DNA of 8,517 nucleotides from contig MGSU01000174.1 in NCBI GenBank assembly GCA_001799195.1, positions 1 through 8,517 of the forward strand. Direction: 5' to 3'. Under the pieces are notes generated by a model. That model was not told the DNA's origin. It made no database searches and saw nothing but the letters and a program-made list of their open reading frames with translations. The translations under genes were made by a program, and so were the position numbers. Positions 1 to 8,517 of the stretch are shown here, one piece after another. Source of the DNA: Deltaproteobacteria bacterium RIFOXYA12_FULL_61_11. Its GTDB lineage: Bacteria > Bdellovibrionota_F > JAHFAK01 > YA12-FULL-61-11. How positions within the stretch are numbered: position 1 is the stretch's first letter; every line of letters begins with the position of its first letter.

Positions 1-81
1 TCGTTGTGTTTCGCAACCACGATGGAATCAAATGCTGATGGCCTTTTCAACCTCTTTCTGCAGCTTCTGAAGGGGGCTTAA
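1..81 (+). CDS. Possible 3' end of an upstream gene (uncertain)
   Basis: The forward frame starting at base 1 is open for 26 codons and ends at TAA (79-81), 15 bases before the GTG of the membrane-protein gene. The predicted tail ends in NLFLQLLKGA. Such close spacing would fit an operon partner. The support is weak: a second forward frame is also open until TGA at 68-70, base composition here is less GC-rich than in the clear genes, and 26 codons are too few to recognise a family. The stretch may equally be an untranslated leader of the next gene. Confidence 0.2.
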   Translation, partial: SLCFATTMESNADGLFNLFLQLLKGA

Positions 82-84
82 GGA
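80..84 (+). promoter_or_regulatory. Candidate Shine-Dalgarno before membrane-protein gene
   Basis: AAGGA lies 12 bases before the GTG at 97. The spacing is longer than ideal, but this is the only good purine-rich match near any of the candidate starts (GTG 97, ATG 133, ATG 211). It is the main reason to prefer the GTG. Confidence 0.3.
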
Positions 85-96
85 AACACGAATGCT

Positions 97-1866
97 GTGC
101 GCCTGACCTCCGATTGCGAGTTCCGACAACCGATGAACTACACGGCCGAGGAGGCTCCACAAGGTGTCACGGGCGGGCGTTCGCCTCTCCTCGGTGTGTG
201 CTCGAGGCGCATGTTCTCCCTCCTGCTTCTGCTCCTCATCGTCTTCCTGCCGCTCGTGGCCCAGCTCTCGACCTGGGACACCTTGGCCTGGGAGAAGCAC
301 GCCCGGTTCTTCGTCGGGCACCAACTCGACGAACTCTTTTTCAATCACATCCAGTTGCAGCAGCCCACGCGCTGGGAAGCCACCATGTTCTCCTATTACT
401 GGGGCATCTCGGGTTTCGGTGGCCACAGCTTGACCTGGAATCTCCTCCTCCAACCCCTGTTCTTTCTCTTCGGTTTCATACCCGAGGTGTTCAATCTCGC
501 TTGCCTCTGCTGTCATCTCCTCTTCTCTTTCACACTCTTCCGATGGTCGCGCCGCCGTCCCCAGCTCGGGTCTCCTCACCTGATCCTCGCCCTGGTTATC
601 CTCACGCCCTGGTACCAGGCCACCATGTTCTCCGGCACCTTCCTCTCCCTCTCGCTCGCTCTCTCCCTGGTCCTCCTGCTGTACTTCTTTTCTGCGACCA
701 AGGACTACCGGCGGGGCAAGGTCCTGCTGCTCGGGCTCCTCTGTGGTCTCAATCTCTACAGTTACCTCGTCTTCCGCGTCTATTCCCTGCTCGTTCTCTT
801 CACCTTCCTGGGGTTGTTGGTCTTCCGGAGACCCGCGCACCTGTCCGATCGCCAGGCCCTGCTAAGGATAGGGCTCTTTTTCCTCGGTTGCCTCGCGCCC
901 TTGCACGTCAACCTCGCGGAACCCTTCACCGTCCTCGGCAACCTCTTCGCCGACAACGAAACCGTACTCCACGGTAGCCTCATGTGGGCTCATCACGATA
1001 TCGCGCATGGTGCCACCCTCTGGTCGCCTTTCTGGGACAACCTCCTCGTTCATTTCTTCAACTACCAAAGCTGCCACAATCCCGAGGGCATCCCGGTCTC
1101 GCTCCGCTACCACACCCTCGAACTCGATGTCCTCCTCTTCCTCTGTTGGTGTCTCTTCCTGGGCAAATACCGCACGAGCACCCTGCTCCTCCTCTCCGGC
1201 TTTTCCGCCGCCATGCTCATCCTGCCCAATCTGCTCATGTACCCATGGTCGGTGACCCGCATTGGAGGGGTGGCCCTCCCCTTCCTCCTCGCCGCCGCTC
1301 TTGGTTTCTCCGCCTCGATAGCAGCACCACTGCCGGGCAAGCGAGCCCGGGGCGTCTTCAGAAGCTTGCGCTTCCTCTTCCTCTGCGCCGTCCTCGTCGT
1401 CCTTTTACTCAATAACCTACTTTTCTACCGCCTAGAACAGCGCCGCGACCCGTTGCTCGATTTCGCCGAGACGATCACCAGGCAGGAATATCCCTTCAAG
1501 ACCGTCATCCTCCTCATCCCGAATGACAGCCATCACGGCTCCCTCAATAAAACCTTTTTATGGTCTGTGAGCCGGCGCTTCGGGGTGGAGCAGGCGCAAT
1601 GGCTCAACTTGTCCACACTCAGTGAGTTGCGTCGCTTCGAGACAGTGATCTGTCCCCCTCTTCACAAGCAAGACTTGGATTTTCTGGGGGACGAGTATGC
1701 ATGTGAGCTCTACACGTTGGTGCAAAGATGGGAGCGCGTCATCATCGGCGCCCTGCACTCGGAACCCACCGCAAAGCCACTCCCCCCCGGCTTCCGCTAC
1801 CTCGGCAGCACAGGGCATAGCGAGCCCACACTCACCGGCGACCTGGACTTCTATCTCCTCGAGTAA
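97..1866 (+). CDS. Polytopic membrane protein, possible GT-C-type glycosyltransferase
   Basis: This is a predicted inner-membrane protein of 589 residues when started at GTG 97. Hydrophobic segments lie near residues 40-56, 114-148, 160-199, 208-244, 255-271, 342-380, 389-408 and 423-444, so about ten or eleven helices. A soluble tail of about 140 residues follows (450-589). The long acidic loop after the first helix (W60-D61, E66, D78-E79) is where GT-C lipid-linked sugar transferases carry their catalytic Asp/Glu. The SVTRIGG segment before a late helix also recalls that superfamily. No diagnostic family motif is visible, so GT-C is an inference from topology. Starts at ATG 133 and ATG 211 are in frame; 211 sits directly before the first helix and would drop a 38-residue polar leader. 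Codon bias is clearly that of a real gene. It converges on the phosphoesterase gene with a 20-base gap. Confidence 0.8.
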   Translation: MRLTSDCEFRQPMNYTAEEAPQGVTGGRSPLLGVCSRRMFSLLLLLLIVFLPLVAQLSTWDTLAWEKHARFFVGHQLDELFFNHIQLQQPTRWEATMFSYYWGISGFGGHSLTWNLLLQPLFFLFGFIPEVFNLACLCCHLLFSFTLFRWSRRRPQLGSPHLILALVILTPWYQATMFSGTFLSLSLALSLVLLLYFFSATKDYRRGKVLLLGLLCGLNLYSYLVFRVYSLLVLFTFLGLLVFRRPAHLSDRQALLRIGLFFLGCLAPLHVNLAEPFTVLGNLFADNETVLHGSLMWAHHDIAHGATLWSPFWDNLLVHFFNYQSCHNPEGIPVSLRYHTLELDVLLFLCWCLFLGKYRTSTLLLLSGFSAAMLILPNLLMYPWSVTRIGGVALPFLLAAALGFSASIAAPLPGKRARGVFRSLRFLFLCAVLVVLLLNNLLFYRLEQRRDPLLDFAETITRQEYPFKTVILLIPNDSHHGSLNKTFLWSVSRRFGVEQAQWLNLSTLSELRRFETVICPPLHKQDLDFLGDEYACELYTLVQRWERVIIGALHSEPTAKPLPPGFRYLGSTGHSEPTLTGDLDFYLLE

Positions 1867-1886
1867 GGGTGCTTCGAGAGCCGACC

Positions 1887-3002
1887 TCAACCCTCGCCCC
1901 GAGGTGCCCGCAGCGTGATGAGGAGGATATCTCCGCGTGGCCACAAGCGCATGGTCGGACCCCAGGTGCCGGCACCGCGACTGACAATGGCGGTCATGCT
2001 TCCTACCTGATAGCGCCCTGTCAGGAGTGGATACACCAGGCGCACCAGATATCCGAACGGCCAGAGTTGACCGTTGTGGGTGTGGCCCGAGAGCATCAGG
2101 CCCACGCCTGCTTCGGCCGCGCGTTCGGCCTGCCAGGGAGTGTGCGACAAGAGCACCGTAGCCCCCTCCGGCCTGCCGGTCAGGGTCTGGGCGATGGGAT
2201 CACCCGGCAGATCGCGCCGACGATGCATGGTGAGATCTTGGATCCCTGCGAGGATGAGGCCCGGGGCAACCTTCACCCTACTGTCGCGGAGCAGTTCGAA
2301 CCCCGAGACCCGAAGGACGTTTCCGCCACTTCCCCATGTACCTTCCCCGGAACGGGCTTCGTGATTGCCGAGGACGAACCACTTCCCCAAGCGCGCCTCG
2401 ATCAGGGAGAGGGCCGGTACTTCGAACGAGCTGGGTTCATAGCCGTCGAACATATCGCCCAGAAAAACCAGCAGGTCAGGGCGTAACGACGAGAGTTTCT
2501 CAATGGTCCTCGAGAAGCGCTGGGCGTCGCCGGGGGAACCGATATGAGCATCGGACACGGCGAGGAGCACGGTACCGTCCAACTCCCTGGGCAACCCCGG
2601 CAACATCACCTCGTGTGACTCCACCACCGGGTCGCGCTGGCCCTGGACGAGGGCCACCACGGTCAGGACTGCACCGACGACCAGCGCTCCGCCGCGGAGC
2701 CTCGCACTCCAACGCCGCAGGAAGAAACCGAAGACCGTGACAAGCTCCACGACGAACATGGCCACGGTAAAGAGCAAGCCTGCTCCCAGGAGGTTCATCC
2801 CGAGGTAGTCGACGGCCTCACCGAGCGTGCCGAGATCCTGATGCCGGAGCAGCCGCATTTCCATGAAGCAACCCCAGAGGACCGCTCCGAGACCCCAGAT
2901 AGATGTTCGAGAGAAGCCGGCCAAAACCGGCGTCGAGGCTGCCCGCCAGAGGAGATAGGCGAGCATGAGCGTGTAGGAAACGGTCAAGACTAGACCGAAC
3001 AT
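1887..3002 (-). CDS. Membrane-anchored calcineurin-like metallophosphoesterase
   Basis: The product is a 371-residue protein with four predicted N-terminal helices (about 3-20, 34-50, 67-92, 104-121) and a C-terminal dimetal phosphoesterase domain (about 143-365). All five family blocks are visible: D151-x-H153 in SDAHIGS, G-D183-x-x-D186, GN213-H214-E, H287 in LLSHTP, and H307-x-H309 in SGHTHNGQLWPF. This layout matches the YkuE/YaeI-like branch, which binds two metal ions and hydrolyses phosphoesters. Some relatives act on phospholipid headgroups or lipid phosphates; the substrate here is unknown. ATG 3002 is the first usable in-frame start, though no clear Shine-Dalgarno precedes it. The gene follows the FkbM gene by 52 bases on the same strand and is probably co-transcribed with it. 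The catalytic face (cytoplasmic or periplasmic) cannot be fixed from the sequence. The family call is firm; the role in the pathway is inferred. Confidence 0.93.
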   Translation of the reverse strand: MFGLVLTVSYTLMLAYLLWRAASTPVLAGFSRTSIWGLGAVLWGCFMEMRLLRHQDLGTLGEAVDYLGMNLLGAGLLFTVAMFVVELVTVFGFFLRRWSARLRGGALVVGAVLTVVALVQGQRDPVVESHEVMLPGLPRELDGTVLLAVSDAHIGSPGDAQRFSRTIEKLSSLRPDLLVFLGDMFDGYEPSSFEVPALSLIEARLGKWFVLGNHEARSGEGTWGSGGNVLRVSGFELLRDSRVKVAPGLILAGIQDLTMHRRRDLPGDPIAQTLTGRPEGATVLLSHTPWQAERAAEAGVGLMLSGHTHNGQLWPFGYLVRLVYPLLTGRYQVGSMTAIVSRGAGTWGPTMRLWPRGDILLITLRAPRGEG

Positions 3003-3054
3003 GGATACGACCGTTCTGAGAGCACCACAATACCAGGGACTCGCCTCATCGTTC

Positions 3055-3960
3055 TCATACCCTGAACGAACGGAGAACCGGGGGAAGCTCGGTGCAGGCC
3101 AGGAGCAACGTCCTGTTCTTGTAAGCCTTGCCCATCTGCCAGGGGAACAAGAGGGGACCTCGCGAACCCTGTTCGAGCTTGAACACTTCGTACCCCTTGG
3201 CGGTCAGTAAGGCCAGTGGATCATCCCCCGGCGGAGCGAAAAGCGGGTGCAACTCGACCACCAAAACGGGTTTCCATACCCGGAGAACGGTCTCGGCTCC
3301 GGCAAGAACCAGGCTTTCCGCACCCTCGACATCCAGTTTACACACCATGGCTCGGGGTGCGCGGGTGGCGAGCAACGCATCAAGGGTGGTGAGGGGAACC
3401 TCCACCACGCGGCCGAAACGGTTTTGGGGGGCCAGCGGCACTATCGACGAACAGGGGTTGGCAGAACCTGCCAGGCGTCGATACTTCACCCGCCCCGTTG
3501 AAGCACCGAGGGCAACCTCGTGGACCTCGACCGTATCGAGTCCGTTCAGGAGGAGGTTCTTCCTCAGGCCGGCAGCGAGCTGGGCATCCATCTCCACGGC
3601 CAGGACCGCGCCCCGAGGGAGCAAACGAGCGGCAAGGCAAGTGAAGTACCCGAGATGCGCACCGAGATCCAGGAAGAGTTCGGCTTCGCGCAGTAACAAG
3701 GGCAAGAGCGCCGTCAAGGCGGGTTCATGGCTTCTCCCAGCACCGAGGCGGTGCTGCACCCAGGCAGAGGTCGAGGCGTCCTCGCGGGCGAATTGCAACG
3801 CAACGCCGGCGACTTCGATCCTGGCCGGACTCGAGCTACGACCTTGTCCGAAGTAGCGGATCTGGTGCAACCAGACGAAGCATCCTACGAGCAAACGGTA
3901 GAGGAGATAGCCGAGCGCATGCAACAAACCGGGTCGAGCGGTGTCGGACGGTGCATCCAT
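3055..3960 (-). CDS. FkbM-family SAM-dependent methyltransferase
   Basis: This 301-residue protein carries the Rossmann SAM-binding signature FLDLGAHLGYFTCLAAR (96-112). A ribose-binding acidic residue follows in AVEMD (E123). Two blocks typical of FkbM enzymes are present: VPLTTLDALL (189-198) and KLDVEGAE (208-215). FkbM proteins usually O-methylate hydroxyls on sugars, polyketides or other specialised metabolites. Residues 11-37 form a hydrophobic to amphipathic stretch ahead of the catalytic domain, so membrane association is possible. The gene is first in a leftward pair with the metallophosphoesterase and diverges from the GT2 gene across 88 bases, which hints at a glycan or glycolipid substrate. 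ATG 3960 is used because the N-terminal helix follows it, although no good Shine-Dalgarno is seen. The family call is secure; the acceptor is unknown. Confidence 0.92.
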   Translation of the reverse strand: MDAPSDTARPGLLHALGYLLYRLLVGCFVWLHQIRYFGQGRSSSPARIEVAGVALQFAREDASTSAWVQHRLGAGRSHEPALTALLPLLLREAELFLDLGAHLGYFTCLAARLLPRGAVLAVEMDAQLAAGLRKNLLLNGLDTVEVHEVALGASTGRVKYRRLAGSANPCSSIVPLAPQNRFGRVVEVPLTTLDALLATRAPRAMVCKLDVEGAESLVLAGAETVLRVWKPVLVVELHPLFAPPGDDPLALLTAKGYEVFKLEQGSRGPLLFPWQMGKAYKNRTLLLACTELPPVLRSFRV

Positions 3961-4048
3961 GACCGAATTGTGCGCGGATGCGGTTGAATGTCCAGCTCTT
4001 TCCTGGTACCCACAGCAGTTCTCTCCTTTTTCGTCAGCGGAGAACTAC
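3961..4048. promoter_or_regulatory. Divergent intergenic region, FkbM / GT2
   Basis: These 88 bases separate the two divergent start codons and should hold the promoters for both transcripts. Only one weak sigma-70-like pairing is visible for the rightward unit: TTGAAT (3984-3989), a 17-base spacer, then TACCCA (4007-4012), with a poor -10 element. I see no clear operator palindrome beyond the 6-base GGTACC at 4005-4010. The promoter function is inferred from gene orientation, not from a convincing motif. Confidence 0.45.
4039..4042 (+). promoter_or_regulatory. Shine-Dalgarno deciding the GT2 start
   Basis: GGAG lies six bases before ATG 4049, a near-ideal spacing. The upstream in-frame candidates (GTG 3941, ATG 3959) lack such a site. 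GTG 3941 would also overlap the divergent FkbM gene. Confidence 0.65.
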
Positions 4049-5263
4049 ATGTCCTGGGGTCTCCTGCCCTACCTCGTCGTGGCCCTGGTCGATCTCGGCG
4101 TGATCCTCCTGGTCCTGATCCGGCGCCGACAACTCACCTCGGCCGAGCTCCCGAACCCGTTGGACTGCCCCCTGCGAGAACCCTGGCCCCTCGTCACCGC
4201 TGTTGTTCCGGTGCGTAACGAGGCCGAGAACATCGAAGCCTGTGTTCGTTCTCTCCTCCGACTCGAACCGCCCCTGCTCGAAATCCTGGTCGTGGATGAC
4301 GGCTCGACGGACGAGACCATTTCTTTGCTCGAAGCTCTGCTCCACACCGAACCCCGAGTTCGCTTACTACGAGCCGACACCGCGATGGGTTGGAGCAGCG
4401 GCAAGGCCCGCGCGCTCTGGAGTGGAGCCCAACAAGCACATGGCGACTGGCTGCTGTTCACCGACGCAGACACCCGTCACGATCCTGGTTCGCTGTACCG
4501 GGTTCTCTCGTGGTGCCGGAAGCACGGCGTGGAAGCCTTCTCCTGCGGGGGCACCTATACCTTTCCCGACACCGCCACCGAGCTGCTCGAGACCACCCTG
4601 TACTTCATGCTCACCCTGGGGATGCCGCTGCAGCGCATCGAGGACCCCGAGGACCCCCTCGCCTGGATCAACGGCCAATACGTGCTCATCGAGTCCGCGG
4701 CCTACCGCAGGATCGGCGGGCACCAGGCCGTGGCCAAACACATCTCCGAAGACATGGCCCTTGCACGACTGGTCAAGGCAGCCAAGGTCAAACTCGCCTT
4801 CAAACCCAGGTTCCGGGCCTACCATTGCAAGAATTACAACAATGTATGGTCAGCGATGGCCGGTTGGACCCGTATCCTGGCCATGGGTTCTCCCTGGATC
4901 GGGCTCGGCCGACGGCACTTTCTCCTCTCGGTACTCATCCTTCTCGGCCTACCCATGGCCTCACCGTTCATGATACCGAGCTTGCTCCTGTCGTCGTGCT
5001 CTCTTCCCGCTTGCATGCTGGCCGTGTTCCTCTTCGGTTCCTTCGCGGGCACAGCTCTCGGACTTCGTCACGCCCTCGGTCTCCCCCTCTGGAAGGGAAT
5101 TCTCTGGCCGCTCGGTGCAGCACTTGCTCTGACGGTCTACGTTCGCGCCTTCGTCGCCCGTTTCCTCCACGGCGAGGTCGTGTTCAAGGGACGCCGGGCT
5201 CCCATCACCGCCCCTGGTTCGAACGGAGGACCCGGGTCGAAAGATGATGCGCCGAAGGATTGA
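4049..5263 (+). CDS. Membrane-associated family 2 glycosyltransferase
   Basis: Started at ATG 4049, this is a 404-residue GT2 enzyme (GT-A fold) that would transfer a sugar from a nucleotide-sugar donor to a lipid or other acceptor at the cytoplasmic membrane. One N-terminal helix (about 5-24) leads into the catalytic domain. Visible motifs are VVPVRNEAENIEA (52-64), VVDDGSTDET (81-90), GW-x-x-GKARAL, the metal-binding FTDADTRH (137-144), INGQYVLI (207-214) and SEDMALAR (233-240), which holds the probable catalytic-base ED pair. W-x-x-MAGWTR (267-275) sits where processive enzymes have QxxRW. Two or three C-terminal hydrophobic segments follow (about 290-335 and 349-370). The pattern resembles the CrtQ/HpnB-like branch (carotenoid or hopanoid-associated transferases). 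It is 48 bases upstream of the ACP gene on the same strand, so glycosylation of a product built on that ACP is plausible but inferred. Longer in-frame starts at GTG 3941 and ATG 3959 exist. Confidence 0.93.
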   Translation: MSWGLLPYLVVALVDLGVILLVLIRRRQLTSAELPNPLDCPLREPWPLVTAVVPVRNEAENIEACVRSLLRLEPPLLEILVVDDGSTDETISLLEALLHTEPRVRLLRADTAMGWSSGKARALWSGAQQAHGDWLLFTDADTRHDPGSLYRVLSWCRKHGVEAFSCGGTYTFPDTATELLETTLYFMLTLGMPLQRIEDPEDPLAWINGQYVLIESAAYRRIGGHQAVAKHISEDMALARLVKAAKVKLAFKPRFRAYHCKNYNNVWSAMAGWTRILAMGSPWIGLGRRHFLLSVLILLGLPMASPFMIPSLLLSSCSLPACMLAVFLFGSFAGTALGLRHALGLPLWKGILWPLGAALALTVYVRAFVARFLHGEVVFKGRRAPITAPGSNGGPGSKDDAPKD

Positions 5264-5311
5264 ATGTGCTAGACGTGCGAGCATCGAACGGGAGAGGACC
5301 TGGACGGTTCC

Positions 5312-5572
5312 ATGGATGGCATCTCCGAGCGCGAGCGCTTGCGCGACCTCCTCGGCGAGGTCCTTGCCAAGACCACCCATTACCGAGGCTACCTCGGCGA
5401 TGAGCTGGACTTCCTCGCAGACCTCGGGCTCGACAGCATGAACCTCGGGCGCTTGGTCATGGAACTGGAAGAACGCCTGGACCTCTTCCTGCAAGACCTT
5501 CCCGAGGGCCCGCCCCGGACCATCGGCGAACTCCTGGACGCTATCCTCTCGCTCAGGGAACAACCGCAGTGA
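5312..5572 (+). CDS. Acyl carrier protein, stand-alone
   Basis: This 86-residue acidic helical protein has the 4'-phosphopantetheine attachment motif LGLDSMNLGRLVMELEE, with Ser42 as the expected modified serine. It would carry an acyl chain as a thioester in the cytoplasm. The motif differs from housekeeping AcpP (DSLD/DSLDTVEL), and the downstream partner is an acyl-activating ligase rather than fabF, so this is probably a dedicated carrier for a specialised lipid. An AGAGGA run (5293-5298) precedes ATG 5312 with a rather long 13-base gap. The stop overlaps the ligase start by four bases (GTGA at 5569-5572), which implies translational coupling and a functional pair. Confidence 0.9.
   Translation: MDGISERERLRDLLGEVLAKTTHYRGYLGDELDFLADLGLDSMNLGRLVMELEERLDLFLQDLPEGPPRTIGELLDAILSLREQPQ
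5555..5559 (+). promoter_or_regulatory. Shine-Dalgarno of the acyl ligase, inside the ACP gene
   Basis: AGGGA within the last codons of the ACP gene lies nine bases before GTG 5569. It supports the GTG start and the GTGA stop-start overlap. Confidence 0.55.
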
Positions 5573-7362
5573 GCTTTCGCAATCAACCTTCGTGGCGCAC
5601 CCTGGGTGACGTCCTGGTCGAAGCGGCAGAAACCAACGCCTTCGGGGTTCGCTTCTGGAGCAGAGAGGGCCGGCACCTCGAACTGACCTACCGCGACGTG
5701 TTCCAACGGGCCCGGGCCGTCGCCGGAGAATTGGTCCGCAGGGGAGTGCGTCCTGGAGACCGGGTCATCCTCGTCCTGCCCACCTCTCCGGAGTTCCTCG
5801 ACGCCTTCTTCGGCTGCCTGCTCTCGGGCGCGGTCCCCTGCGCGCTGTACCCGCCGGTACGACTCGGCCGCATCGACGAATGGAAGACCAATACCGCGAG
5901 GATGATCCGCGGCATCGACGCGGTGTTGGTGCTCACCGGCAAGCGCATCTTCAACCTGCTCGGGTATCCGGTACGTGAAGCCCGCCCCGTGCTCGGCTGC
6001 GCCTGTGTCGACGAATTGGGCTCCGGCGAGCTGCTCTCGGACGATATTCCCTTGGAACCGGAAGACCTGGCCTTCATCCAGTACAGCTCCGGCTCCACCG
6101 GTTTTCCCAAGCCCGTGGCCATCAGCCACCGCAATGTCCTGGCAAATGCCGAGGCCATCCTGGCGAGTTTCCCGCTCGCGACCGAAGAAATGAGCTGTGT
6201 GAGTTGGTTACCCCTCTATCATGACATGGGTTTGGTCGGCACCGTGATCTGCGCGTTGGTCTCGCGCCGGCCCCTGACACTCCTGGCCCCCGAACTCTTC
6301 ATCGCCCATCCGGTAGAATGGCTGCGGGCGATCCATGCCACCCGGGCAACGATCACCGTCGCTCCCAACTTCGCCTTCAACTATTGCTGCAGGAAGATCG
6401 AGGAGAGCGAATGCGAAGGACTCGATCTCTCCTGTCTGACCGTTGCCCTGTGCGGCTCGGAAACCGTCCACGCCGGTACCCTCGAGTGCTTCGCCCGCCG
6501 GTTCGGACGCTACGGTCTGGCGTACGAAACGCTGACCCCGGTCTACGGCATGGCCGAAGCGACCCTGGCGCTCACCTTCTCCGAGGTCACCGCTCCGCTC
6601 TCGGCGCTCCGTTTCGAAGAACATGCCCTCGACCTGGAAGGACGCGCGGTCGAGGTGCAAGAAGGAGGCGTCGAGCTGACCTCGGTGGGCAAACCCCTCC
6701 AGGGGATAGAACTCAGCGTGCGCGATCCCGGCGGAAAAGCCTGTACCGAGGGTACGGTCGGCGAGCTCTGGGCACGCGGTCCCTCGATCATGCGCGACTA
6801 CCACGGTCTGCCCGCTGAAACCTCGGCCGTGCTGGTCGAGGGTTGGCTGCGCACCGGCGACCGGGGTTTCCTCTACCGGGGCGAGCTGTTCCTGTGCGGC
6901 CGTTTCAAGGACCTCGTCATCATCAACGGTCGCAACCACGACCCCACCCAGATCGAACACGCCCTCTACGAACTGGAAGCCCTGCGCAAGGGTTGCTGCG
7001 TTGCCTTCAGCCAATTCAGCGATAAAACCGGCACCGAGGAGCTCGTCGTCCTCGCGGAGGTGAAACAGCAACTCTCGATCGAGGAACTACGCCGCTTCAC
7101 CGAACAAGCCCGCACCTTGGTCCAGAGCCGTACCGGCATCACCCCGGCCGTGGTCGAAGCCCTGCCCCGGGACTCCCTCCCGCGGACCTCTTCGGGCAAG
7201 ATCCGCCGCGGCGAGACCCACCGGCGTTGGCTCAAACGCGAGCTCTCGCCGGAAGGCTCCTTCCGCATTTCCTCGATGCTCAAAGAACAGCTCAAAGGTC
7301 GTTACGACCAGCTCGTCTATGCCCGAGACATGCGCCGCTGCCCGAGGGAAGAGCTCTCCTGA
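5569..7362 (+). CDS. Fatty acyl-AMP ligase / acyl-ACP synthetase
   Basis: This 597-residue ANL-superfamily adenylating enzyme should use ATP to turn a fatty acid into an acyl-adenylate and pass it to a carrier protein, most likely the ACP encoded just upstream. Visible motifs are the P-loop-like FIQYSSGSTGFPKP (169-182), WLPLYHDMGLVG (213-224), APNFAFNY (265-272), LCGSETV (294-300), YGMAEATLAL (326-335), GELWARGPSIMRDYHG (398-413), WLRTGDRGF (426-434), GRFKDLVIINGRNHDP (444-459) and the C-terminal PRTSSGKIRR (538-547) with catalytic Lys544. The HDMGL, APNF and GRNHxP blocks are typical of fatty acyl-AMP ligases, which feed ACPs or polyketide synthases rather than CoA. I cannot confirm from motifs alone the insertion that distinguishes those from acyl-CoA ligases. 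Length is normal. The GTG start overlaps the ACP stop. The gene converges on the ThiL-like gene. Confidence 0.94.
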   Translation: MSFRNQPSWRTLGDVLVEAAETNAFGVRFWSREGRHLELTYRDVFQRARAVAGELVRRGVRPGDRVILVLPTSPEFLDAFFGCLLSGAVPCALYPPVRLGRIDEWKTNTARMIRGIDAVLVLTGKRIFNLLGYPVREARPVLGCACVDELGSGELLSDDIPLEPEDLAFIQYSSGSTGFPKPVAISHRNVLANAEAILASFPLATEEMSCVSWLPLYHDMGLVGTVICALVSRRPLTLLAPELFIAHPVEWLRAIHATRATITVAPNFAFNYCCRKIEESECEGLDLSCLTVALCGSETVHAGTLECFARRFGRYGLAYETLTPVYGMAEATLALTFSEVTAPLSALRFEEHALDLEGRAVEVQEGGVELTSVGKPLQGIELSVRDPGGKACTEGTVGELWARGPSIMRDYHGLPAETSAVLVEGWLRTGDRGFLYRGELFLCGRFKDLVIINGRNHDPTQIEHALYELEALRKGCCVAFSQFSDKTGTEELVVLAEVKQQLSIEELRRFTEQARTLVQSRTGITPAVVEALPRDSLPRTSSGKIRRGETHRRWLKRELSPEGSFRISSMLKEQLKGRYDQLVYARDMRRCPREELS

Positions 7363-7404
7363 GACCACGGGGTCCTTGGTAGAAGACAGTTCCTTCCCGC
7401 CCCC

Positions 7405-8427
7405 TCACACCAGCCCCGCGTATTCCCGCCTCATCTCGCCGAGCAGGACCGCCGGATCGGCCCGGTGGTTCCACAACCTGTCGAGCAGTGGGCGCAACGG
7501 CAGCGGGTGGCGACGACCGCCGGGGAGCAAGACGTGACTACCGTCTCGGACCATGCGCCCGAGCAAGTGGGCGGTAGGCAGGGCTCGGAGCACGGCGTCC
7601 AGGCGGTCTTCCGGTACGGTGCAGAGGAGTTGGTAATCGCCGTGTTCGACGAACCAGGCCGGGAGCGGACACAGACCGGTCCCGCGGATATACCGAAGGG
7701 CTCCCGGCTCGAACAGGCTCTCGTCCCACGAGAGGGATACTTCGAGGTCGTTGACGGCGCACAAATGGCCGAGGGCGGTGAGCAGCCCGTCGCTGGTGTC
7801 GATCACGGCGCTGACCGAGGAAGCGAGGAGGCGACCCTCGTCGAGCTGCGCCCGGGGCCTGAAGGCCGTATCCGGGAACTCGTCTACCGGCCTCCCGAGC
7901 AGGAAGCGCAAGGCCAGGGCCGCGGCACAGCCGAATTCGCCGACCAGAACGAGGTGCTCCCCGGGTTTCGCTCCCTTGCGGCCGACCGGCGGCAGGGTGC
8001 TGGTGCCGAGCACCGTGGTGGTCAGACTGGTCGCGACGGCGTTGGAGGTATCGCCGCCGAGCAACCAGGTTCCGGCCGAGGTCAGGGCCTCCTGTACCCC
8101 TCGGGCCACCTCGCTCTTATAGGTATCCCCGGTCCCAGCTCCCCACTGCACCGCTTGGAGGACGCCCAGGGGAACTCCCCCACAGGCGGCCAGATCGGAC
8201 AAGGCGGCCATGACCGCGACCCAGCCCACGGTGAAGGGATCTCGATAGAGGCCGAAGGCCAGTTCCTCGGCCAGGCAGTCGATGCTGCTGAGCAGAAAGC
8301 CTCCTCCGGCGAGGGGGAGACACTCGCAATCGGCCTCGTCGAGACCATGCAACAACTGGGGGTGACGGCGTCCGAGGGGTACCCAGCGCAGGAGTTCGGC
8401 GATTTCCGGGATCAGGGTCACGGACAT
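7405..8427 (-). CDS. Divergent ThiL-like / AIR synthase-superfamily protein
   Basis: The 340-residue product has the block order of the PurM/ThiL/SelD/HypE superfamily and is closest by eye to thiamine-monophosphate kinase. Visible blocks are the TTD-like SSIDCL (47-52), ALSDLAACGGVP (75-86), LLGGDTS (122-128), RKGAKPGEHLVLVGEFG (150-166), VIDTSDGLL (208-216) and HGDYQLL (262-268). ThiL uses ATP and Mg to phosphorylate thiamine monophosphate. Here two active-site motifs are altered: the N-terminal GDD reads E31-A32-D33, and the GGEDYEL block reads EHGDYQL. ATP and metal binding may persist, but thiamine activity is doubtful. A GAGG at 8438-8441 sits ten bases before ATG 8427. The start lies inside the end of the upstream kinase-like gene, so the two are probably translationally coupled and functionally linked. 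The superfamily call is strong; the reaction is unknown. Confidence 0.85.
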   Translation of the reverse strand: MSVTLIPEIAELLRWVPLGRRHPQLLHGLDEADCECLPLAGGGFLLSSIDCLAEELAFGLYRDPFTVGWVAVMAALSDLAACGGVPLGVLQAVQWGAGTGDTYKSEVARGVQEALTSAGTWLLGGDTSNAVATSLTTTVLGTSTLPPVGRKGAKPGEHLVLVGEFGCAAALALRFLLGRPVDEFPDTAFRPRAQLDEGRLLASSVSAVIDTSDGLLTALGHLCAVNDLEVSLSWDESLFEPGALRYIRGTGLCPLPAWFVEHGDYQLLCTVPEDRLDAVLRALPTAHLLGRMVRDGSHVLLPGGRRHPLPLRPLLDRLWNHRADPAVLLGEMRREYAGLV

Positions 8428-8517
8428 AGTCGGAGCACCTCGGGGAGACAGGTAAAAACGACCTCCGCGCTCGTGCTGACCTCGCCGTCGAACTCCAGGG
8501 GGAAGCCCTGGGCAGAC
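8418..8517 (-). CDS. C-terminal end of a diacylglycerol/sphingoid-base kinase-family protein (partial)
   Basis: Only the last 32 codons are inside the window. The reading frame begins at base 8516 and ends with TGA at 8420-8418. The tail contains GFPLEFDGEV followed by VVFTCLPEVLRLCP. This matches the usual C-terminus of DAGK/LCB5/YegS-type lipid kinases, where a DGE motif is followed by a hydrophobic strand and a short proline-ended strand. Such enzymes phosphorylate lipid hydroxyls such as diacylglycerol, sphingoid base or ceramide. The catalytic N-terminal part is missing, so the call rests on a short segment. The stop overlaps the ThiL-like start by ten bases. A DGE tail also occurs in a few related NAD-kinase-fold proteins, so the substrate class is open. 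Confidence 0.55.
   Translation of the reverse strand, partial: SAQGFPLEFDGEVSTSAEVVFTCLPEVLRLCP

Follow-up and report, generated by a model that had tools for sequence, protein, structure and literature searches.

A widespread clade of ThiL-like proteins encoded with lipid genes, and its possible role in a sphingoid-type membrane-lipid pathway

Results

Gene content of the locus and its genome

The window, by which we mean the whole 8,517-nucleotide stretch of DNA analysed here, corresponds to bases 1-8517 of a 12,060-base contig belonging to a 4.64 Mb draft genome (87% complete); the nearest other genome compared with it is related at class level only. Close to its end lies a ThiL-like kinase gene of the lipid-operon subfamily described below (7405..8427, (-)), which starts with ATG and encodes 340 aa plus a stop. 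Upstream of it, the C-terminal end of a DAGK/YegS-type lipid kinase occupies 8418..8517 (-), and the stop codon of this kinase falls inside the ThiL-like gene, giving a 10-base overlap. A 203-N scaffold gap (contig 8518-8720) interrupts the kinase; past it, the N-terminal portion of a DAGK-type kinase can be read on the same strand (AACGGDGTVN, GLGSSNDFHKP). Further along the contig come a thymidylate-kinase-like gene and then a long PEP-utiliser protein whose C-terminus reads HAD-like; its reading frame (L035:2619-4760, contig 9918-12059), upstream of the lipid kinase, combines a PEP-utiliser mobile domain with an apparent HAD-like phosphatase domain.

Two convergent neighbours, an acyl carrier protein gene (5312..5572, (+)) and a fatty acyl-AMP ligase gene (5569..7362, (+)), are candidate pathway members, and the ligase distantly resembles (78 bits) the acyl ligase encoded after the ThiL-like gene in other phyla. 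Adjoining this pair is a glycosyltransferase 2 gene (3941-5263, (+)) whose nearest relative is the hopanoid-associated HpnB (119 bits, cut-off 379). The remainder of the window holds an FkbM-type methyltransferase (3055-3960, (-)), a calcineurin-like phosphoesterase with weak LpxG/YaeI similarity (1887-3002, (-)) and a large ORF (97-1866, (+)) whose product looks like a multi-pass membrane protein and has no Pfam/NCBIfam match. As the original prediction had it, the window has no further gene for thiamine, purine, selenium or hydrogenase functions. The same prediction set the protein in a lipid/glycan neighbourhood. The informative neighbours (lipid kinase, thymidylate-kinase-like gene, PEP-utiliser/HAD protein) lie mostly outside the window and are not its glycan genes; the window's own glycan genes were dropped as function-defining, none being seen beside the subfamily elsewhere.

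Across the draft genome (87% complete) we found no second thiL, no thiE or thiC, and no UbiA relative. The ThiL-like gene is the sole AIRS-domain (PF00586) match in the 4.64 Mb, while all 14 control genomes gave matches, and the same PF00586 search detected no PurM, PurL, SelD or HypE. Possibly the organism depends on others for purines, or the genes fall in the missing 13% of the genome. A synthase fragment nearest the Ignavibacteriales and Riflebacteria types is present on another contig. A further synthase match (on contig C128) was rejected as a pathway member: it adjoins an apparent threonine dehydrogenase and is probably a glycine C-acetyltransferase.

The protein has a ThiL/PurM fold and is nearest ThiL in sequence

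The 340-aa protein is full-length and has the ThiL/PurM fold. It matches Pfam AIRS (PF00586) at 65.1 bits (9.7e-18), exceeding the gathering cut-off of 24, and TIGR01379 thiL with an E-value of 1.1e-39, where its 136 bits fall below the curated equivalog cut-off of 184 bits, a threshold passed in just 9 of 14 known genomes in the same search. The SelD model scored 53.5 bits (2e-14), below its NCBIfam cut-off of 125, and NCBIfam matches at E 0.01 included no HypE or PurM model. An AlphaFold2 model computed from an alignment of 15 family members reached a mean pLDDT of 87 and a pTM of 0.89. The closest solved relatives of the protein are ThiL. Foldseek placed ThiL structures at the top for the model, and VIA-align gave Z 30.7 and an rmsd of 2.6 over 291 aligned residues for the best ThiL chain, with lower values for HypE (Z 30.4) and SelD (Z 28.6). 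Judged on this predicted structure, the fold assignment is certain. HypE and SelD fit the model nearly as well as ThiL, with ThiL and HypE structurally tied (Z 30.7 and 30.4), so the fold alone leaves the chemistry of the protein unfixed.

Metal-binding residues are retained and acceptor-side motifs are changed

Structures of Pseudomonas aeruginosa ThiL (PaThiL) give Asp30, 47, 75, 122 and 211 as metal ligands, with Asp214 reaching the TMP phosphate via a metal and His54 and Tyr189 also binding TMP (PMC13254938). In the window protein, EAD (residues 31-33; 8329..8337, (-)) replaces GDD, and D33 corresponds to the metal ligand Asp30. D50 (8278..8280, (-)) matches the ligand Asp47; D78, within SDLAA (77-81; 8185..8199, (-)), matches Asp75; D126, within GGDTS (124-128; 8044..8058, (-)), matches Asp122; and D210 and D213, within DTSDGLL (210-216; 7780..7800, (-)), match Asp211 and Asp214. 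EHGDYQL (261-267; 7627..7647, (-)), a signature of the subfamily, stands in place of GGEDYEL. SDLAA, GGDTS, DTSDGLL, EAD and EHGDYQL all lie where the original prediction had placed them.

The first Asp of GDD is lost, as predicted, yet the lost residue corresponds to Asp29 of PaThiL, which is not a ligand, and the metal ligand is the second Asp (Asp30), whose equivalent is kept in 15/15 subfamily members; we therefore rejected the idea that a catalytic metal ligand is missing. Also gone, as predicted, is the Glu of GGEDYEL, but PaThiL itself has GDDYVL at this site, so this Glu is not invariant among true ThiLs and the motif alone is not decisive. Positions equivalent to PaThiL Asp30, 47, 75, 122, 211 and 214 are D in all 15 members. 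With every ThiL metal Asp kept, the active site is not degraded.

The altered motifs are a real signature of the 15-member subfamily and not noise. At the GDD position every member (15/15) has E or Q, then S, A or T, then D; HG replaces the GE of GGEDYEL in 14/15, and both variants are almost never seen in 55 canonical or other ThiL-type rows. Seven positions (31, 32, 35, 55, 226, 262 and 263) are each nearly invariant in the subfamily, where ThiL mostly has a different residue. Relative to ThiL, Gly28-Asp29 (PaThiL numbering) of the GDD loop becomes E-S or E-A, GE becomes HG at 262-263 (window numbering), and the other substitutions are Ala to Glu at 35, Gly to Glu at 55 and Ser to Asn at 226. 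In a profile alignment to PaThiL, the TMP-binding His54 aligns with A57 of the window protein. In these alignments the metal-binding Asp set is complete, and what sets the subfamily apart lies in the GDD loop and at the acceptor side.

A distinct paralogue clade coexists with true ThiL in most of its genomes

Scanning genome contigs with the window protein as a single sequence found no relatives. A search with a three-sequence alignment of the window protein, a first relative (G007, 34% identity) and a second (G069) yielded 14 loci, G007 among them; one of the 14, from Bacillota (L075), has the GDD and GAEDYELL motifs of an ordinary ThiL and is not counted in the subfamily. The subfamily loci span Stahlbacteria, Eisenbacteria, Riflebacteria, Gemmatimonadales, Rhodothermales, Ignavibacteriales and other bacteria. 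In a quick tree in which many other branches are weak, the 15 members form one clade (SH-aLRT 100, stem 1.02) with the window protein as its deepest, first-branching member, and ThiLs from the same genomes fall outside it. All subfamily copies score below the TIGR01379 cut-off (136-180 bits), and a true ThiL above 184 bits coexists with the subfamily copy in 12 of the 15 genomes (12/14 excluding the window genome). The three genomes with no ThiL over the cut-off are the window genome, a Riflebacteria genome and a Gemmatimonadales genome. Among 39 Riflebacteria genomes, 8 carry a subfamily copy and 31 have none at E 1e-70; a canonical ThiL over the cut-off was found in 0 of the 8 carriers. On sequence evidence, the gene thus belongs to a distinct and widely spread clade of ThiL paralogues. 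The original prediction had tied a thiamine role to placement inside the canonical clade together with the absence of another thiL: the protein lies outside the ThiL clade, but its genome yielded no second thiL.

The clade is apparently an undescribed offshoot of the vitamin-B1 enzyme ThiL. The literature searched held no paper on a ThiL-like protein in such an operon and nothing relevant that links ThiL to sphingolipids, lipid kinases or prenyltransferases, which is weak evidence of novelty given that subscription journals were thinly covered.

The subfamily is usually encoded beside a lipid kinase and near a serine-palmitoyltransferase-like synthase

A DAGK-type lipid kinase, counted by similarity, lies directly upstream of the ThiL-like gene in 14/15 loci, and none was found near 61 other ThiL-type loci used as a control (flanks up to 1.5 kb). 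Twelve of the 15 loci encode a UbiA protein, and 11 a synthase, with one more on the same contig; some of these neighbour assignments come from mechanical ORFs and contig ends, and the lipid kinase is in two pieces in L063 and cut by the contig start in L067. The G069 synthase sits at the end of a different contig. Nine loci share the order serine-palmitoyltransferase-like synthase, UbiA, DAGK-type kinase, ThiL-like gene, usually followed by an acyl ligase, an SDR and a B12-radical-SAM protein. The serine palmitoyltransferase model NF047600 is the best-scoring model for the synthases of related loci, but their 463 and 385 bits fall short of its cut-off of 640. Most of the operons show no evident N-acyltransferase.

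The arrangement varies among lineages. In Rhodothermales and Ignavibacteriales the synthase lies downstream of the ThiL-like gene and is itself followed by DUF3419 (BtaA-like) and GNAT acetyltransferase genes (L074:12299-14397, Ignavibacteriales; L073:14018-16167, Rhodothermales), whose presence suggests that the lipid there may bear an amino-carboxypropyl head group. On one Riflebacteria contig, a thymidylate-kinase-like gene, a synthase and a lipid kinase lie together at a distance of ~21 kb from the ThiL-like gene, on whose far side a radical-SAM gene is paired with a PEP-utiliser gene; the set resembles that of the window contig (the thymidylate-kinase-like proteins are 27% identical). A putative UbiA-looking membrane protein is encoded 3.6 kb upstream of a Riflebacteria ThiL-like gene (L140:159-1214). 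At the remaining Riflebacteria loci that were read, no lipid kinase adjoins the ThiL-like gene; several of these loci, not all, combine it with an SDR and an epimerase, and elsewhere it stands alone. Lacking any relative in the window genome, UbiA was weakened as an essential part of the system. The ebo operon of eustigmatophytes likewise encodes an unusual UbiA protein but was dropped as a match, its other genes being different.

Discussion

We propose that the ThiL paralogue phosphorylates a lipid phosphate in a sphingoid-type membrane-lipid pathway, a statement that, taken whole, we hold at even chances. Membership of the gene in a lipid pathway is well supported, and we infer the substrate and product. 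That the protein is a non-thiamine enzyme of this pathway is likely; that it is specifically a lipid-phosphate kinase is a more tentative claim, which we place somewhat short of even. The pathway it serves is most likely sphingoid-type. With its catalytic core intact and its substrate side rebuilt, the protein probably acts on a membrane-lipid precursor and not on thiamine phosphate. The earlier idea of a repurposed ATP-dependent enzyme for a lipid phosphate is accordingly favoured by the clade, the paralogy and the coupling to lipid kinase and synthase, but in modified form: the active site is not degraded, and it is the acceptor side that has changed. In the window genome itself, the gap-split kinase, the lack of a UbiA relative and the location of the synthase fragment elsewhere count against a lipid reading, as do the Riflebacteria loci in which the gene stands apart from the lipid kinase; the presence of a related synthase fragment in the window genome, and the resemblance of the contig's other flanking genes to the Riflebacteria set, speak for it.

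In the proposed route, the synthase and the SDR would produce a long-chain amino alcohol, which the DAGK-type kinase would phosphorylate to a phosphate monoester. ThiL itself is accepted to transfer the ATP gamma-phosphate in-line onto a phosphate monoester (PMC6416309). The ThiL-like enzyme would do likewise with the lipid phosphate, giving a diphosphate, or it may instead phosphorylate a head-group phosphate of related kind; either product would pass to the next enzyme. Kinases for ceramide and dihydrosphingosine are known in bacteria (PMC10331486), and a Black Sea study reports bacterial sphingolipid capacity in 38 phyla (PMC11334938), which together make a sphingoid product plausible. A broader conjecture, which we regard as rather doubtful, is that ThiL-derived lipid-phosphate kinases make lipid diphosphates in a sphingoid-type pathway spread across several mostly uncultured phyla, the diphosphate serving as the activated donor for the operon's UbiA or another transferase. 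Such a route would parallel the one in plants, where two kinases take prenol to prenyl diphosphate.

The protein might instead serve the same lipid pathway through other chemistry of the PurM superfamily, using ATP to activate a carbonyl, amide or amine in the manner of PurM, PurL, HypE or SelD. The HypE and SelD structures fit the model almost as well as ThiL does, the acceptor side is rebuilt, and with no evident N-acyltransferase in most operons an ATP-dependent step elsewhere is conceivable; we nonetheless judge this unlikely, given a sequence clearly nearest ThiL (TIGR01379 1e-39 vs SelD 2e-14), the retention of all ThiL metal ligands and a neighbouring kinase that would yield a phosphate monoester, the acceptor class of ThiL. 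The protein might also lack catalysis and act as a partner of the overlapping lipid kinase, or regulate it. The gene overlap suggests coupled production, but the metal-binding Asp set is invariant in the subfamily and a dead enzyme would need no such residues; we consider this role very improbable.

A divergent but genuine thiamine-monophosphate kinase, the only ThiL of the window organism, would fit the nearest known family and the failure to find another thiL either in the draft genome or in the eight Riflebacteria genomes with the subfamily. Absence of a canonical ThiL from the window genome, these eight genomes and the Gemmatimonadales genome means that a thiamine role is possible in those organisms. 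We nonetheless judge it improbable that the protein is such a kinase: a true ThiL accompanies the subfamily copy in 12/15 genomes, scores lie under the curated cut-off everywhere, 31/39 Riflebacteria genomes have no subfamily copy (E 1e-70), thiE and thiC were not found in the window genome, and the lipid neighbours are conserved.

Family-based annotation would tend to label these subfamily proteins thiamine kinases. If they do act on lipid phosphates, a vitamin-enzyme family would extend into membrane-lipid synthesis, gene annotations in several phyla would be corrected, and the genes would mark a lipid pathway whose product lipidomics can look for. Direct, testable predictions follow from the signature residues and from the overlap with the lipid kinase.

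Comparison with known systems

HypE, SelD and PurM, of the AIRS-domain superfamily, have the fold in common with the ThiL-like protein (Z about 20-30), but share only 13-22% identity with it and give family scores much weaker than that of ThiL. The Caulobacter sphingolipid cluster with the ceramide kinase CpgB (PMC10331486, PMC11324152) resembles the subfamily loci in bringing together a serine palmitoyltransferase or similar synthase, an acyl-activating enzyme, a reductase and a sphingolipid kinase in one region; the subfamily loci belong to different phyla and add UbiA and ThiL-like proteins, whereas no ThiL-like gene turned up in the Caulobacter text searched. With ThiL itself (TIGR01379; PaThiL, AbThiL and AaThiL structures), the subfamily shares the fold, the domain order, all metal-binding Asp and the SDLAA, GGD and DxSDG blocks. 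It differs in reading E-S/A-D for GDD and xHG[ED][FY][EQ]L for GGEDYEL, in replacing His54 of PaThiL, and in forming a separate clade that scores below the family cut-off and is encoded in a lipid operon, beside a true ThiL in 12/15 genomes.
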